From contig JAILBN010000089.1 of NCBI GenBank assembly GCA_024680915.1, positions 1-47,919 on the forward strand: DNA of 47,919 bases. Reading direction: 5' to 3'. The notes beneath the pieces are model-generated. The model saw only the letters and a list, made by a program, of their open reading frames with translations. It was not told the DNA's origin and ran no database searches. Each line of letters starts with the position of its first letter. Positions within the stretch are counted from its first letter, which is position 1. This DNA comes from Treponemataceae bacterium. GTDB lineage: Bacteria > Spirochaetota > Spirochaetia > Treponematales > Treponemataceae. The position numbers and the translations under genes are program-made. Of the stretch, positions 4,501 through 23,770 are shown one piece after another.

Positions 4501-7500
4501 CATTCCCGGACGGCAAGGCCGTCTCACAAAGGGAGAACATGACGAAGACCATGACAGCCCTTGCGGGAGAAAGTAGGATTCTTGAAGTAAAGCTCTTCAG
4601 GACTGATTGGAATCTTGTAAAACAACAGGGTATAGGAGGAAACGTATACACTCGTTACGAAAAAGAAGAAGTTGAGGAATACTCCACTAAAGTCAAGCTT
4701 GAAGCAGAAGGGTCCTTAAAGGTAACTCCGAAGCAGGCCGGATATCATACCCTCCGTATTTCCACGAAGGACAGCCAAGGAAGGAGCGTACTGACAGACT
4801 ACACTTTCTTTGTGACAGGAAGTGGTGCCTACAATTGGTACAGCACATCGGCGGCCTCCCTCAGACTTACCCCCGACCAGTCTCAATACAATCCAGGTGA
4901 CACGGCTCATATCCTTCTTGAAAGCCCCCTTCCCTCTGGTGATTACCTGATAACCACAGAAAGAGAAGGCATATTCACAGAAGAAGTCCGTCATTTTGAC
5001 AACAGCATTCAGGTCCTGGACATTCCTGTTGCCAGGAACTACGTCCCTGTATTCTATGTCTCAATAAGCTCCTACTCAGTAAGAACAGAAGCTCCCCATT
5101 ATGAATACGGGGAAAAAGATGTGGATAAACCCCAGGGATACTACGGGGTGACCCCTGTTTATGTGAACCCTTACGTAAAAGCTTTTTCTCTGAATATAGA
5201 CACAGGAAGCCAAGCCTATAGACCCGGGGAAGAGGTGACTGTAACCATAACCGCGACAAAGGGCGGCAAAGCCCTTGAGAATGCGGAGATAACCCTGATG
5301 GCCGTAGACAGGGGAGTTCTTGATCTGATTGACTATCACGTACCGGATCCTATCAATTTCTACTATCAAGAGGGGAATTTCCCTCTTTGTGTAAAGGGAG
5401 GAGATGACCGCTCCTATCTTATGGATCCTGTGGTCTATGAGACAAAAAATCTTGCTGGAGGAGATGCAGAGGGAAGCGGGGACAAGGCGGAGGAAAGGAA
5501 GGACTTTAATCCTACGGCTGTTTTCGAACCAGTCCTGAAAACTGACAAAGAGGGAAAGGCAGTATGCAAGTTCAAGCTGCCGGACACTCTTACCACATAT
5601 CGCATAACCGTTTTCGGCGTAAACGGAGAGCTTCTTGCCCTCCAGGAAGATGAATTCCTAGTCAAAAACCCAATCAATGTACAGCAGGTCATGCCCCGGA
5701 GGCTCAGAATAAGGGACACTGCAGAAATGGGAGTCATTCTATCCAATCTCGACAGCATAGCCCACGAAATGACCGTATCACTCCATTTTGAGGAAGCAGA
5801 AGCCTCTTCAGAAAACGGAGTCGCAATAAAAACAGGCCTGGCTATCGTAGACGGAGAAAGCAGTCACACTGTCACAGTAGGAGCAGGAAGCACCATAGCC
5901 CTTTATTTTGATGGAGCCGCAGTAGAAGACGGTACAGTAAACGCAGTATTCACAGCGACTAGTGAAGGTATCCTTAACGAAAGGATAATATGTCCCCTCA
6001 TTATAGAAAAGCCCTATATTTACGAGACCTTCTGCACCACAGGCGTAGTCTCGGAAGAAGAGGAGCACGGGGAGGAGAATGTCCTGATACCTTCTTTCGC
6101 CGAGGAAGGCAAAGGCTCAATCTCCATTACACTTGATGCCACACGCCTGGGAACCCTGGGAAGTGCCGTCAACTATGTTTTCTCCTATCCTTACGGCTGT
6201 CTAGAGCAGCAATCGGCAAAAGTGCTGCCTCTTGTTCTGTTTGAGGAATACCTAGATGTATTCGGAATGGAGATGAGTGAGAAAATCTCGGACGTAAGAA
6301 GCTGCGTGAAAGCTTTCTTCAAAAACTGGGCTGACTGTCAGCTCGCAAACGGCTCGTTCGGATACTGGCCGGAATCCACCACAGGAAATCCCTTCGTAAC
6401 GGCCCGTATTGCCCATATCCTGCAGCTTGCGTCAGAAAGAGGCTACACAAATAAAGATATATGCATAAACAGGCAGGCTCTAATAAAAGCTTTGAAGCTC
6501 TTCCTTAAAGAAGATACTTACCAGTATCCAATATCAGATTATGAAAAGGCATATATCTACTATGTACTTGCCATATCAGGGGACAGATCCGTTACTGAAA
6601 AAGACCTTAAGACGCTGACAGAGGACAGCCAGACTCCTATATCGGAGCTTGTCTACACAGCCCTTGCTTCTTACAAGCTCTTCGGAAAGAATTCACCTCT
6701 CGTAAAAGACTCTTTTGAAAGGACAAGGGCATTTATCCGCCCCGGCACCAGGGGGGCAGACATAACGTATCCTGAAATGGATGAGCTATACGCCCCCTAT
6801 GCAGGTTCTAAAGATGAACAGCTGGCCTTGCTGGTTAAATTCTACACTATGCTGGACCCTGAGGACGAGATGATATCCAGGCTTATCTTCACCTTGCTCA
6901 ACAATCAGAAAGCCGGATACTGGAGCAATACTGCCACTACCGCATCTGTACTGGACGCCTTCTATACAGTAATAAAGACAAATAAACTTGACTCTTTAGA
7001 TATTACAGCAGCTGCAGGACTGGGAAGCACCCAGCTTGCAAAGACAAAATTCGAGGGTCCTGCCTCACAACCTTATAAGGTTGAACTGCCCTTCAGCGAT
7101 GACATATTCAAAGGCCTGAAGACAGGAATAACCCTGCCTCTTACCTTCTCCCGCTCCGGCACAGGATCCTTGTATTACACCGCAAGCCTGACATATCCTC
7201 TGCCCTATGAGAATCTTTTAGCCAGGGATGAGGGAATAAGTGTCTCCTATATCATATATGACGACACGACAGGTGAAGAGATTGAACCGACGCACATATC
7301 ATCTTCCTTACAGGAACTTCAAAGCGGAAGGATATACAGGGCAAAGCTCACTATATCCTCCCCACGAGACAGAACTTTCTTGGCCATAAGGGTTCCTGTG
7401 CCATCTGGAGCAGAAATTTTAGACCCGACCTTCATAACGACACCCATAGTTTCAGGAGAGACAGAGGAAGAATATGATTACAGGAGATATTACGACCACA

Positions 7501-19614: not shown

Positions 19615-19643
19615 TTGCACATATATATATAGTGGTGTAGAAT
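19615..19643 (+). promoter_or_regulatory. Sigma70-type promoter for nrdR-nrdD
   Basis: TTGCAC (19615-19620) and TAGAAT (19638-19643) are separated by 17 bp and lie 46 bp upstream of the nrdR start. The spacer contains the half-site TATATAGTGG, which fits the right half of an NrdR box, consistent with autoregulation. Confidence 0.6.
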
Positions 19644-19677
19644 AAAGCTATTGCAAATATGACACTATATATAAGAA
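19620..19677 (+). promoter_or_regulatory. Candidate NrdR-box pair at the nrdR promoter
   Basis: Compared with the known consensus acaCwAtATaTwGtgt, box A (19620-19635, CATATATATATAGTGG) matches mainly in its right half, and box B (19662-19677, ACACTATATATAAGAA) matches the first 12 positions. Start-to-start spacing is 42 bp, close to four helical turns, rather than the usual 31-32 bp. Box A lies between -35 and -10 and box B lies downstream of the start point. The match is weaker than at the downstream site (22345-22392). Confidence 0.45.
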
Positions 19678-19689
19678 TTGGAGATTTAT

Positions 19690-20148
19690 ATGCGATGTCC
19701 TTACTGCGGCAGTCTTGACGACAAAGTTCTGGAATCAAGAACGATGGCTAATGGAGAAAGCATCCGCCGCAGACGAGAGTGCCTTTCATGTGGTTACCGT
19801 TTCACAAGTTACGAGCATATAGAAGAAAAACCCTTCATGGTCGTAAAAAAAGACGGACGCAGACAGCCTTTTGACAGACAAAAGCTTGAGAAAGGAATAG
19901 AAAGGGCTCTGGAAAAACGACCAGTATCCACAATCACCATAGAAAGCATTGTAAGCGAGATTGAGGATCAGGCCATAATGGAAGGAAAAGGAAGTCGGGA
20001 AATATCTACGGAAGCATTGGGGAACCTTGTTCTTGAAAAGCTGCATGAGATTGATAAAGTTGCATATATTCGTTTCGCTTCTGTATATCGTCATTTTGAA
20101 AATCTAAATGAATTCATTAATGAAGTAAATAAACTGGGGGGGCAGTAA
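19690..20148 (+). CDS. nrdR: Transcriptional repressor NrdR
   Basis: This 152-aa repressor senses dATP/ATP and controls ribonucleotide reductase genes. The zinc ribbon uses Cys3, Cys6, Cys31 and Cys34 (MRCPYCGS and RRRECLSCGYRFTSYE), followed by the ATP-cone domain (about 49-139; VVKKDGRRQPFDRQKLEKGI). I chose ATG 19690 rather than the in-frame ATG 12 bp upstream because TTGGAG (19678-19683) is correctly spaced and every NrdR begins at MRCPYC. Its stop overlaps the nrdD start by one base (TAATG), so the repressor and its target are co-translated. Confidence 0.97.
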   Translation: MRCPYCGSLDDKVLESRTMANGESIRRRRECLSCGYRFTSYEHIEEKPFMVVKKDGRRQPFDRQKLEKGIERALEKRPVSTITIESIVSEIEDQAIMEGKGSREISTEALGNLVLEKLHEIDKVAYIRFASVYRHFENLNEFINEVNKLGGQ

Positions 20149-22256
20149 TGAGCGGGCAATCCGATTTTCCAGAATGGAGGAGTTTTCTGGGAAATAAAAA
20201 TGAAGACACGCAGACCATGTTCATCAGGCATGTAGTAAAACGGTCGGGGGAAATAAGCGATTATGACCGTAAAAAGATTTTTACAGCTATAGGGAAAGCT
20301 ATAGAAGCTGTAGAAAAAAGGAACAACCCGGATAAAGCAGAACTTCTTACAGACGCGGTTGAAGAAAGACTGAGACTTCTCATGGCAGGAAGACATGAAC
20401 ATTCAATTCCTGCCATTGAGGAGATTCAGGACATCGTAGAGACTGTCCTTATTGAGAACAATGAGGTCGCCGTAGCAAAGGCTTATATTCTCTACAGAGC
20501 AAAGCACGAAGCTATCCGTGATGCGAAAAAGCTGATGCTTGACATCAACGCTACCATGGATGGTTATCTTAATCAGTCTGACTGGAGAGTAAATGAGAAC
20601 GCCAACGTGAACTTCTCTCTCGGTGGTCTTATCCTTCACAATTCAGGCACGATTACAGCTAATTATTGGCTCAGGAACATATATTCAAAGGAAATAGCGG
20701 AGGCTCACAAAACAGCAGCCTTCCATATCCACGACTTGTCAATGTTCTCCGGCTACTGCGCAGGCTGGTCAATCCGCCAGCTTATAGCAGAAGGTCTTGG
20801 TGGAGTTCCTGACAAAATAACATCAACTCCCGCGACTCACCTTTCAACGCTTGTCAACCAAATAGTCAATTTTTTGGGAATCATGCAGAACGAGTGGGCC
20901 GGAGCCCAGGCTTTCAGCTCTTTTGATACTTATCTTGCGCCTTTTATCAGGAAAGACAATCTTTCAGAAAAAGAAGTACGCCAGTGTATCCAGAGCTTTA
21001 TTTTCGGTGTGAACACACCCAGCCGCTGGGGCTCACAAGCACCATTCACAAATATAACACTGGATTGGGTCTGTCCTGATGATCTGAAGGACAAACCTGC
21101 CATTGTAGGTGGAAAAGAAATGGACTTCACCTACGGTGACTGTCAGAAAGAGATGGATGTCATAAACAGGGTTTTCATTCAGCTTATGATTGAGGGGGAC
21201 GCCGCAGGACGCGGATTCGCCTACCCTATACCAACATATAACATCACGAAAAATTTCGACTGGAACAATGAGAACGCTAAGCTTCTCTTCGAGATGACAG
21301 CTCAGTATGGAACACCTAACTTCCAGAACTTCGTCAATTCAGATCTAAACCCGAACGACGTAAGATCAATGTGCTGCCGTCTCCAGCTCGACAAGAGAGA
21401 GCTGAGAAGAAGGGGTGGCGGACTTTTCGGTGCGGACGAATTCACAGGTTCCCTGGGTGTCGTCACAATCAACCTGCCTCAAATAGGATACCTTACGAAA
21501 AACGAACAGCAGTTCTTCGTACGCCTTGATTATTTGATGGATCTTGCGAAAGAAAGTCTCTGCACAAAAAGAAAAGTCATTCAAAGACTTTTGGACGGAG
21601 GACTTTTCCCCTACACAAGACGCTATCTCTCAAGGCTTGACAATCACTTCAACACGATAGGTCTTTGCGGTATGAACGAATGCTGCCTTAATTTCTTAGG
21701 ATGTGATATCAGTACGCCTAAGGGCAAAGCTTTTGCCGAAAAGGTTCTTACCCACATGAGAAACAAGCTGTCTGATTATCAGGAAATAACCGGCGAGCTG
21801 TTCAACCTTGAGGCAACTCCTGCTGAAAGCACGTCATACAGGCTGGCTCGTCACGACAAAGCTCAGTATCCTGATATTATAACATCGGGCACAGATGAGC
21901 CCTTCTACACGAACTCATCACAACTCCCGGTGAACTACACCACCGACGTTTTTGAGGCTCTTGACCATCAGGAATCTCTTCAGACAAAATATACGGGAGG
22001 AACTATGTTCCACGTATTCCTGGGAGAAGCCTTAAAAGACTGGCAGACCTGCCGTGACTTGGTAAGGACGATCGCATCCTCTTACAGGATTCCATTCTTT
22101 ACTATATCACCAACCTATTCGATCTGTCATATCCACGGCTACCTGAACGGGGAACAGTTCGAATGTCCTAAATGCAAGGCCGAGAAAATGCAGAAACTGA
22201 AAAAACAGCTTGCAGCCCTGGAGGCAGAAAAAGAAGCCATTATGGCTCAAGCCTAA
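20148..22256 (+). CDS. nrdD: Class III ribonucleotide reductase large subunit lacking its glycyl-radical domain
   Basis: This 702-aa protein reduces ribonucleoside triphosphates to deoxy forms without oxygen. An ATP-cone regulatory domain (about 24-120; RHVVKRSGEISDYDRKKI) precedes the ten-stranded barrel. Candidate active-site cysteines are Cys204 (SGYCAGWS) and Cys409/Cys410 (RSMCCRLQLD). The C-terminal finger is present as Cys660-x2-His663 and Cys673-x2-Cys676. Full-length NrdD would continue into the RVxGY glycyl-radical loop, but this protein ends with a lysine/glutamate-rich helix (EKMQKLKKQLAALEAEKE) and a stop. The missing domain is encoded separately at 22488-23021. The start overlaps the nrdR stop and has a GGGGGG ribosome site. 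Confidence 0.95.
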   Translation: MSGQSDFPEWRSFLGNKNEDTQTMFIRHVVKRSGEISDYDRKKIFTAIGKAIEAVEKRNNPDKAELLTDAVEERLRLLMAGRHEHSIPAIEEIQDIVETVLIENNEVAVAKAYILYRAKHEAIRDAKKLMLDINATMDGYLNQSDWRVNENANVNFSLGGLILHNSGTITANYWLRNIYSKEIAEAHKTAAFHIHDLSMFSGYCAGWSIRQLIAEGLGGVPDKITSTPATHLSTLVNQIVNFLGIMQNEWAGAQAFSSFDTYLAPFIRKDNLSEKEVRQCIQSFIFGVNTPSRWGSQAPFTNITLDWVCPDDLKDKPAIVGGKEMDFTYGDCQKEMDVINRVFIQLMIEGDAAGRGFAYPIPTYNITKNFDWNNENAKLLFEMTAQYGTPNFQNFVNSDLNPNDVRSMCCRLQLDKRELRRRGGGLFGADEFTGSLGVVTINLPQIGYLTKNEQQFFVRLDYLMDLAKESLCTKRKVIQRLLDGGLFPYTRRYLSRLDNHFNTIGLCGMNECCLNFLGCDISTPKGKAFAEKVLTHMRNKLSDYQEITGELFNLEATPAESTSYRLARHDKAQYPDIITSGTDEPFYTNSSQLPVNYTTDVFEALDHQESLQTKYTGGTMFHVFLGEALKDWQTCRDLVRTIASSYRIPFFTISPTYSICHIHGYLNGEQFECPKCKAEKMQKLKKQLAALEAEKEAIMAQA

Positions 22257-22281
22257 TCATTTACGAACAGGCTTCCGGCTC

Positions 22282-22349
22282 CCTCTCAGTGCCGAAAGGG
22301 CAGGAAGGGAGAGGTCAGTGTCAGGGCGAAAAGCTCCAGCCCTGGCACT
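22282..22349 (+). terminator. Tandem hairpins after nrdD (likely terminator or attenuator)
   Basis: Hairpin 1 pairs CCTCTC (22282-22287) with GAGAGG (22309-22314) around an inner TGCC/GGCA stem with a GAAAG loop. Hairpin 2 pairs AGTGTCAGGGC (22317-22327) with GCCCTGGCACT (22339-22349): 11 bp including one G-U pair, with an 11-nt loop. A T-rich but interrupted tail follows. The right arm of hairpin 2 overlaps the first NrdR box, so termination of the nrdR-nrdD transcript and control of the next promoter share the same DNA. Confidence 0.65.
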
Positions 22350-22392
22350 ATATTTAGTGTTATTTATTGACTAAATACACTAAATGTAGTAA
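22345..22392 (+). promoter_or_regulatory. NrdR-box pair (32-bp spacing) controlling the radical/redoxin gene
   Basis: Box 1 is GCACTATATTTAGTGT (22345-22360), matching 14 of 16 positions of the NrdR consensus acaCwAtATaTwGtgt. Box 2 is ACACTAAATGTAGTAA (22377-22392), matching 12 of 16. Starts are 32 bp apart, three helical turns, the classic NrdR arrangement. The pair brackets the -35 and overlaps the -10 of the promoter at 22367-22395, so bound NrdR should block transcription. Confidence 0.78.
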
Positions 22393-22395
22393 AGT
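22367..22395 (+). promoter_or_regulatory. Sigma70-type promoter for the glycyl-radical/redoxin gene and nrdG
   Basis: TTGACT (22367-22372) and TAAAGT (22390-22395) are separated by 17 bp and lie 92 bp upstream of ATG 22488. Both elements lie within or between the NrdR boxes. This gives the second piece of the reductase its own regulated start, separate from nrdR-nrdD. Confidence 0.6.
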
Positions 22396-22487
22396 TTTAA
22401 TATATAAATGCCGATTATATAAACGAGTCGTAAAAAGACATGTTTTTATGGCTCAGACAACTTACTATAATAAAGTGGGAGGATTTT

Positions 22488-23021
22488 ATGGTAAAAACGG
22501 TACGTACACTGGCAGATGTGGAGGCAGATATAGCCCGGACAAAAGAAGCTCTTGCAAATGTAAAAGGAACGGAAACAGAGGTTTACGCACGAATCGTAGG
22601 CTATTATCGCTCTGTCCGTAACTGGAACAAAGGCAAAAGAGATGAATATAACAACCGAAAATTGTTTGTTTACAATAATGACGAAAAAGAACTTCCTGTC
22701 ATTGAGAACGTCATCGTAAAGCAGGCAGAGAGCGCAAAAGCTGTGGCTTCAGACGGCCCATCAGCACGCTATGAGTTTTTTGCACGGAAGACATGCCCTA
22801 ACTGTCCGCCTGTAAAGGAATATCTTGCTGATGTTACCTTGCCAGGTTCATATATCGATGTTGACTCAGAAGAAGGTCTTGCAAAAGCTGCAGAACTCGG
22901 TGTTTTCTCAGCCCCCACAGTCATCCTTTATGATGAGGACGGGGTAGAAACCGCAAGGGCTCATAACGTAAAAGAGCTGAAGGCTGCTTTAAAAGCAACG
23001 GCAATACCAGTATCCGCATGA
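22488..23021 (+). CDS. Stand-alone NrdD glycyl-radical domain fused to a redoxin domain
   Basis: This 177-aa protein carries the part missing from NrdD. Residues 7-26 are helical, then EVYARIVGYYRSVRNWNKGK (31-50) is the class III glycyl-radical loop with Gly38 as the predicted radical residue, followed by RDEYNNRKLF. After a linker (about 62-92) comes a thioredoxin/glutaredoxin-like domain starting at RYEFFARKTCPNC, with redox pair Cys103/Cys106 and the cis-Pro segment FSAPTVILYDEDG. I chose ATG 22488 because GGGAGG (22477-22482) is ideally spaced; the frame is open from 22440. The start codon of nrdG overlaps its stop by 4 bp. It should dock on NrdD, receive the radical from NrdG, and may also supply electrons. 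Confidence 0.9.
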   Translation: MVKTVRTLADVEADIARTKEALANVKGTETEVYARIVGYYRSVRNWNKGKRDEYNNRKLFVYNNDEKELPVIENVIVKQAESAKAVASDGPSARYEFFARKTCPNCPPVKEYLADVTLPGSYIDVDSEEGLAKAAELGVFSAPTVILYDEDGVETARAHNVKELKAALKATAIPVSA

Positions 23022-23770
23022 AAGAGTTGGAAGCCGCCGGTTCAAAAAAAGCCGGCGTGCTTGTAAAGACAAGCCTTGTAGACTATCCAGGACACGTTTC
23101 TTCTACAGTTTTCCTTCACGGTTGCAATCTTCGTTGTCCTTATTGTTATAATACAGAGCTTGTCATAAAGAATATAAATGAAGTCGAGGGTATCTCTACA
23201 GTTCAGGAAATAATAGAGCATCTGGAAAAAAGAAAAGCCGTTCTTACAGGTTTTGTCATTTCTGGAGGAGAAGCTCTTATTTCCCCCTACTTAGAAATTC
23301 TTATAACAGAAGCAAAAAAACGAAACTATAAAATAAAGCTGGATACTAATGGTACAAATCCGGACAAGCTGGAGGCTGTTCTGAAGGATCCAGAGCTACG
23401 TCCGGATTTTGTGGCAATGGATATAAAGACATCAATATCCAAGCTTGGTCTTTTGGTGCCTCATTTAACAAATGAAGCTATAAATGACATACTTGCCGAG
23501 AAAGTAAAAAAAACTGCGGAGTTAGTCGCCGCAATGCCTGCAGATACTCGTGAATACAGGACGGTTCTGGTACCACCCCTTGTTGATGAGAATGATATAA
23601 TAGAAATGGCAGCTTTTCTTCCAAAAGACGCTTCTTGGCAATTCGCCCAGTTCAGGAATGATAATTGTCTTGACCCCCTGTACAATAACGTAACCCCCTA
23701 CACACCGGCAGAGGCAGAAGCTTTAGTCAAAAAAGCCGCGTCACTTATCCCTGGTGCAGAATTACGATAA
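23018..23770 (+). CDS. nrdG: Class III ribonucleotide reductase activase (radical SAM)
   Basis: This 250-aa radical S-adenosylmethionine enzyme uses a [4Fe-4S] cluster to generate the glycyl radical. The cluster motif CxxxCxxC is Cys36, Cys40 and Cys43 in HGCNLRCPYCYN. VISGGEALISPYLEIL is the SAM-binding GGE segment, and LDTNGTNPDKL follows. It belongs to the longer NrdG type rather than the short E. coli type. It overlaps the glycyl-radical/redoxin gene by 4 bp (ATGA), so activase and radical-carrying piece are made together. A tRNA promoter follows immediately. Confidence 0.93.
   Translation: MKELEAAGSKKAGVLVKTSLVDYPGHVSSTVFLHGCNLRCPYCYNTELVIKNINEVEGISTVQEIIEHLEKRKAVLTGFVISGGEALISPYLEILITEAKKRNYKIKLDTNGTNPDKLEAVLKDPELRPDFVAMDIKTSISKLGLLVPHLTNEAINDILAEKVKKTAELVAAMPADTREYRTVLVPPLVDENDIIEMAAFLPKDASWQFAQFRNDNCLDPLYNNVTPYTPAEAEALVKKAASLIPGAELR

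Follow-up and report, generated by a model that had tools for sequence, protein, structure and literature searches.

A glycyl radical enzyme usually consists of one chain, which oxygen destroys at the radical glycine. In the locus studied here, from a Treponemataceae bacterium, the glycyl-radical domain of a class III (anaerobic) ribonucleotide reductase is encoded apart from the nrdD core. We asked whether this split gene still specifies a working enzyme, and whether the gap between its two parts holds a promoter under the control of NrdR. The window, i.e. the whole stretch of 47,919 nucleotides that was analysed, contains the following features.

19620–19635, + strand: upstream NrdR-like box CATATATATATAGTGG with a weak left half (matrix scan, nrdR promoter)
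19662–19677, + strand: downstream NrdR-like box ACACTATATATAAGAA with a weak right half (matrix scan, nrdR promoter)
19690–20148, + strand: nrdR, repressor with Zn ribbon and ATP-cone (TIGR00244 194 bits, cut-off 124.65; PF22811 and PF03477)
20148–22256, + strand: nrdD core, ATP-cone and barrel with MCCR finger motif (PF13597 positions 1–534 of 562 only, 578 bits; PF03477 72 bits; NF006126 1077 bits)
22176–22253, + strand: helical tail of the core, KAEKMQKLKKQLAALEAEKEAIMAQA, in split forms only (comparison with relatives; AlphaFold2 helix in a homologue)
22345–22360, + strand: NrdR box 1, GCACTATATTTAGTGT (direct reading, matrix and genome pattern scans; kept in relatives)
22367–22372, + strand: −35 element TTGACT (promoter scan; TTGACA or TTGACT kept in relatives)
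22377–22392, + strand: NrdR box 2, ACACTAAATGTAGTAA (direct reading and matrix scan; within the promoter spacer)
22390–22395, + strand: −10 element TAAAGT, matching at four of six positions (promoter scan; overlaps the end of box 2)
22477–22482, + strand: ribosome-binding site GGGAGG of the radical/redoxin gene (sequence)
22488–23021, + strand: radical/redoxin subunit, 177 aa (PF13597 positions 532–562, 1.8e-7; PF00462, 0.001)
23018–23770, + strand: nrdG, radical-SAM activase (TIGR02495 NrdG2 141.9 bits, cut-off 131.15)

Gene content of the split locus

The product of the nrdD core, whose nearest solved structures are those of Thermotoga maritima NrdD (4coi/4u3e), terminates right behind the CPKC zinc knuckle and has no glycyl-radical motif. 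After a gap of 231 bp the next gene starts with ATG at 22488. Its product consists of an N-terminal helix, a glycyl-radical domain (RIVGYYR), a linker and a redoxin domain (CPNC). The radical glycine is Gly38 (codon 22599–22601), the CPNC cysteines are Cys103 and Cys106, and all three residues are invariant across 14 relatives. The start of nrdG overlaps the stop of this gene by 4 bp. At the other end of the locus, the original prediction had placed NrdR just upstream, and the nrdR product indeed scores above the curated TIGR00244 cut-off.

Two features of a class III NrdD are found in the usual form, namely a barrel with ATP-cone and conserved finger-loop cysteines (MCCR) and a radical-SAM activase, NrdG, above the TIGR02495 cut-off. 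Another, a glycyl-radical motif on the barrel polypeptide, is missing there and lies in the next gene. MCCR is the finger-motif variant given for NrdDh4 (PMC4493059). By its sequence, the core, having MCCR, belongs with the redoxin-dependent NrdD2/NrdDh enzymes, and from this grouping we infer that the tethered redoxin is the likely reductant of the split enzyme. NrdDh/NrdD2 of T. maritima and Neisseria bacilliformis share with the window the barrel, ATP-cone, zinc knuckle, CCR finger motif and NrdG, and a protein is likely their reductant as well. The window differs from them in that its glycyl-radical domain sits on a separate, redoxin-fused polypeptide and both parts carry extra helices.

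No class I/II reductase (PF02867) was found in the window's own genome (a 95.7% complete draft), and the same holds for six further genomes of the genus and for five other relatives. No NrdD apart from the split form was found in the window's genome. This is apparently the only reductase in the genus, a statement that rests on the agreement of seven drafts; other complete treponemes do carry a class I/II enzyme. The class II reductase NrdJa/NrdJb of Pseudomonas aeruginosa likewise consists of two co-operating polypeptides (cited in PMC9669993). The window differs from it in class and split point, its second subunit being the domain that bears the radical, and the absence of PF02867 from its genome does not fit a split class II enzyme.

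A small glycyl-radical protein could also be a spare part that repairs oxygen-cleaved NrdD rather than an obligatory subunit. There are precedents: YfiD, a small glycyl-radical protein, rescues oxygen-cleaved pyruvate formate-lyase (PFL), and such proteins have been proposed for other glycyl radical enzymes (PMC8683613). The PFL spare parts YfiD/GrcA and T4 Y06I are, like the protein described here, free-standing glycyl-radical domains that dock into a barrel in trans, but they rescue a damaged complete enzyme (PMC8683613), and no complete NrdD was found in this case. Since the sole NrdD found in the genome lacks the glycyl-radical domain and a class I/II reductase was not found either, a repair protein would have no intact enzyme to act on. 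In addition, the core ends at the same point in 99 loci. We consider a mere repair function very unlikely.

Box pair and promoter in the gap

The original prediction described two NrdR-type boxes, 32 bp apart, that straddle a promoter. On direct reading, box 1 and box 2 match the palindrome ACACTATATATAGTGT at 14 and 12 of 16 positions, and their starts are exactly 32 bp apart, leaving a spacer of 16 bp, about three helical turns. The promoter TTGACT-N17-TAAAGT was found at the predicted coordinates, with the predicted spacer of 17, both by direct reading and by a promoter scan. The proposed arrangement has to be amended. Box 1 does lie upstream of the −35 element, but box 2 is located inside the −35/−10 spacer and covers the first 3 bases of the −10 element, which means that the pair lies over the promoter more than around it.

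A pattern scan of the 3.15-Mb genome with ACACTAWATNTAGTGT gave box 1 as the sole site with no more than one mismatch and about 10 distinct sites at two mismatches, one of them box 2. For scoring we used a matrix trained on 58 sites, all from genera other than that of the window. Among single sites in the window, box 1 (21.6) and box 2 (13.7) rank far ahead of the next site (7.6). As a pair they reach 35.4 bits; the best pair per random 48-kb window averages −0.8, with a maximum of 19.9 (n = 200). The second-best pair in the window, with 42 bp spacing, lies at 19620/19662 in the nrdR promoter and scores weakly (7.0 bits). A spacing of 42–43 bp is also the commonest one upstream of nrdR in relatives (51/92).

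In vitro, NrdR binds best to boxes with spacers of 14–17 and 24–27 bp, corresponding to three and four turns (PMC12051234). Judged by the features of an NrdR operator, the gap contains palindromic boxes near ACACTATATATAGTGT with scores far above those of random windows, a pair in helical phase (spacer of 14–17 or 24–27 bp; 16 bp in the window), and an overlap with the promoter of a reductase gene in a genome that has nrdR. Two values are less favorable, as the −10 element matches at just 4/6 and box 2 at just 12/16 positions. NrdR control of class III genes is already known (PMC12051234). The nrdDG operators of Listeria monocytogenes and Streptococcus likewise consist of two palindromic boxes in helical phase over the polymerase site, and the spacer in L. 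monocytogenes is 16 bp, equal to that of the window (PMC12051234). In contrast to these systems, the operator in the gap is located between the NrdD halves, would control the radical-subunit gene and nrdG, and is accompanied by a second operator ahead of nrdR-nrdD.

No + strand terminator was found in the gap between nrdD and the radical/redoxin gene. GC-rich inverted repeats occur at 22270–22345, between the nrdD stop and box 1, with no T run after them, and their folding stability is no better than that of shuffled sequences (z −1.2).

Conservation of the putative gap operator and of the split

The original prediction suggested comparing the same spacer in related species. In this comparison, the corresponding gap of many species turned out to contain box pairs with spacings that suit NrdR; in dozens of relatives the boxes lie 31–33 or 41–43 bp apart with TTGACA between them. 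The 71 unique gaps of at least 70 bp contained 56 box pairs, whereas 0.3 were expected from shuffles. The spacings were mostly 41–43 bp (spacers of 25–27 bp), with a smaller class at 31–32 bp, and the best-pair spacing peaked at 42–43 in the gaps, likewise upstream of nrdR (matrix). A box within 3 mismatches was present in 51/65 gaps of at least 90 bp and absent from the remaining 14/65; none of the 29 gaps below 70 bp contained a box. Several relatives have only a single clear box in the gap. A −35 element within one mismatch of TTGACA, at most 30 bp upstream of the proximal box, was found in 44 of 51 loci (8.5 expected). TTGACA is usually located at −19 relative to this box, which means that the box covers the −10 element; in the window and three loci of the same genus the position is −10 or −9. 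The window's layout of boxes and promoter is repeated in the same-genus loci L032, L087 and L109. It should be noted that the gap loci are related by descent and the counts are thus not independent.

The palindromes might belong to another regulator: there are no binding data, and ACACTATATTTAGTGT is merely a sequence match to NrdR boxes. However, nrdR is present in the locus, related pairs with the same spacing are found upstream of nrdR, and the spacing classes of the window and its relatives fit the NrdR optima measured in vitro (PMC12051234), which supports their assignment as NrdR boxes. A regulator other than NrdR is therefore a distant prospect.

The split itself is also widespread. The second protein, with radical and redoxin domains, is encoded in 46 of 59 related genomes, and nearly all relatives that keep the locus have the gene order nrdR, core, gap, radical/redoxin, nrdG. 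In a Spirochaetota sample, 220/393 genomes matched; many of the matches are short separate ORFs, others are fused chains of ~785–1090 aa. Judging from these comparisons, the division into an NrdD core and a separate glycyl-radical/redoxin protein is an ancient one that extends across much of the Spirochaetota. Split cores (n = 99) carry 22–38 residues beyond the last CxxC of the zinc knuckle that are found in none of the fused homologues, and split radical domains have 25–44 residues ahead of EVY. The added parts on both proteins look helical, whereas the fused homologues run straight through.

A tree of 65 core sequences requires three changes between the fused and the split state, indicating either one split and two re-fusions or up to three splits. 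In this tree, fused chains of NrdD, radical domain and redoxin (L074 in G036 and L212 in G405) are nested among split ones, hence the choice between re-fusion and repeated splitting. Two genomes with long open frames, G050 and G054, were first taken as fused and then reassigned as split, because the core has its own stop.

Genus g15 includes six genomes in which 97–527 kb lie between the core and radical-domain genes. At these loci (L073, L208 and L081, L215–L219) no redoxin remains, and nrdG has moved along with the radical-domain gene. The relocated gene has an NrdR box in both genomes read (0 and 1 mismatch), and the locus without mismatch reads TTGACA-a-ACACTATATATAGTGT-TAGAAT.

A split reading frame could also be a broken gene, an assembly error, or a gene healed into one polypeptide by recoding or intron splicing. 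Introns or inteins can split phage nrdD genes (PMC3653736), and in ten relatives the two parts share a frame and are separated only by a single in-frame stop (L044, L052, L057, L062, L070, L092, L096, L104, L111 and L149). Yet the gaps of the relatives range from 16 to 378 bp and fill the three frames evenly (37/31/31), so that the ten in-frame loci are probably due to chance. Moreover, the gaps contain promoters, and the second gene has its own ribosome-binding site and ATG. An Rfam search of the gap gave no match to a group I/II intron, riboswitch or other known RNA, and gaps as short as 16 bp in relatives do not fit a self-splicing element. The even frame distribution and the unlinked genes of g15, hundreds of kb apart, argue against recoding or stop read-through. 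Altogether, a broken, misassembled or healed gene is hardly conceivable. In the original prediction the boxes were taken to show that the split is functional. The comparisons support a functional split, although the boxes alone would not show it; the argument rests on three points, namely that much of the phylum has kept the split, that the genes can be physically separated, and that no class I/II reductase was found in the genus. With a conserved promoter and two NrdR sites inside the gap, the locus gives the impression of an enzyme that works in two parts, not of a broken gene.

The conserved box pairs and TTGACA elements and the g15 boxes also support the proposal of an NrdR-controlled promoter for the radical/redoxin gene and nrdG, with NrdR binding and the transcript start being inferred. 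The boxes could be real operators and the radical/redoxin-nrdG unit could nevertheless owe most of its transcript to read-through that begins at the nrdR promoter, with the internal promoter as a minor booster. All genes are on the same strand in tight order without a detected terminator, and relatives with gaps <70 bp, which have no boxes there, probably rely on one promoter. On the other hand, a near-consensus TTGACA and a box are retained in most long gaps, and the unlinked radical-domain unit of g15 has its own box-bearing promoter. We regard read-through as the main source of transcript as rather unlikely, but it is not excluded.

A probable two-subunit reductase and free-standing radical domains

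The locus very probably encodes a class III ribonucleotide reductase that is made of two subunits and controlled by NrdR at two points, in which binding, repression and activity are inferred. Unit 1 would comprise nrdR and the nrdD core with its own NrdR boxes, and unit 2 the radical/redoxin subunit and nrdG, for which the gap supplies a sigma-70-type promoter. In its dATP/ATP-loaded form, NrdR would occupy box 1 and box 2 on the same face of the helix and cover the −35 and −10 elements. When dNTPs are plentiful, NrdR would shut unit 2, and a fall in dATP would release both units together; such co-repression would match the supply of both enzyme halves to dATP. At the protein level, the added C-terminal helix of the core probably pairs with the added N-terminal helix of the small subunit. 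This pairing would put the Gly38 loop into the barrel, where NrdG would make the glycyl radical in trans and the tethered redoxin would reduce the active-site disulphide.

We modeled the core and small subunit of a relative (L096) with AlphaFold2, which are in frame across one stop, joined through this stop codon as an artificial single chain that is not meant to imply read-through. The helices at the junction (672–705 and 723–738) were predicted with pLDDT of about 91–96. Overall confidence was moderate (pLDDT 70.5, pTM 0.58) and low at the glycyl loop. The joined radical domain superposes with that of intact NrdDs and PFL, and residues 117–778 of the model align with 12–647 of 4u3e (Z 23.4, rmsd 5.8 over 521).

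What is new is the use of NrdR control within a conserved class III reductase that consists of two subunits and has its radical domain fused to a redoxin; the locus also provides NrdR with one operator for each half of the enzyme. Searches of open-licence papers on split NrdD, treponemal NrdD and spirochaetal NrdR turned up no account of a class III enzyme in split form, which is no proof of novelty. A radical glycine placed on a subunit of its own, which is tethered to a redoxin and transcribed separately, offers a natural test system for radical installation in trans, and also for reductant delivery and repair through subunit exchange. It is possible, albeit tentative, that the radical/redoxin protein is an exchangeable subunit under its own NrdR promoter, of which oxygen-cleaved copies are replaced without remaking the 700-aa core, and that orphan domains of phages plug into the host core. 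It has been suggested that glycyl radical enzymes beyond PFL might have spare-part proteins as well (PMC8683613), and the split locus together with the orphan phage domains makes this idea directly testable.

Stand-alone NrdD-type glycyl-radical domains of 60–100 aa were observed on phage or viral contigs (L167, L168, L169, L170, L173, L174, L175 and, near 5001, L179; possibly also L180 and L181). Most have the same N-terminal helix and no redoxin, and their neighbors include terminase, primase and helicase genes. No NrdD core was found on these contigs, which are incomplete (up to 178 kb), and a cultured-phage collection gave two weak matches only. These domains are candidates for spare parts or subunit-swap proteins. 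Orphan radical/redoxin genes without an adjacent nrdD, nearly identical to each other, were found in two different genera (L041:3130–3633 in G003 and L060 in G017), and no close NrdD was seen in G017. The orphan gene of L041 adjoins a gene whose 1916-aa product contains a phage-like Ig structural domain.
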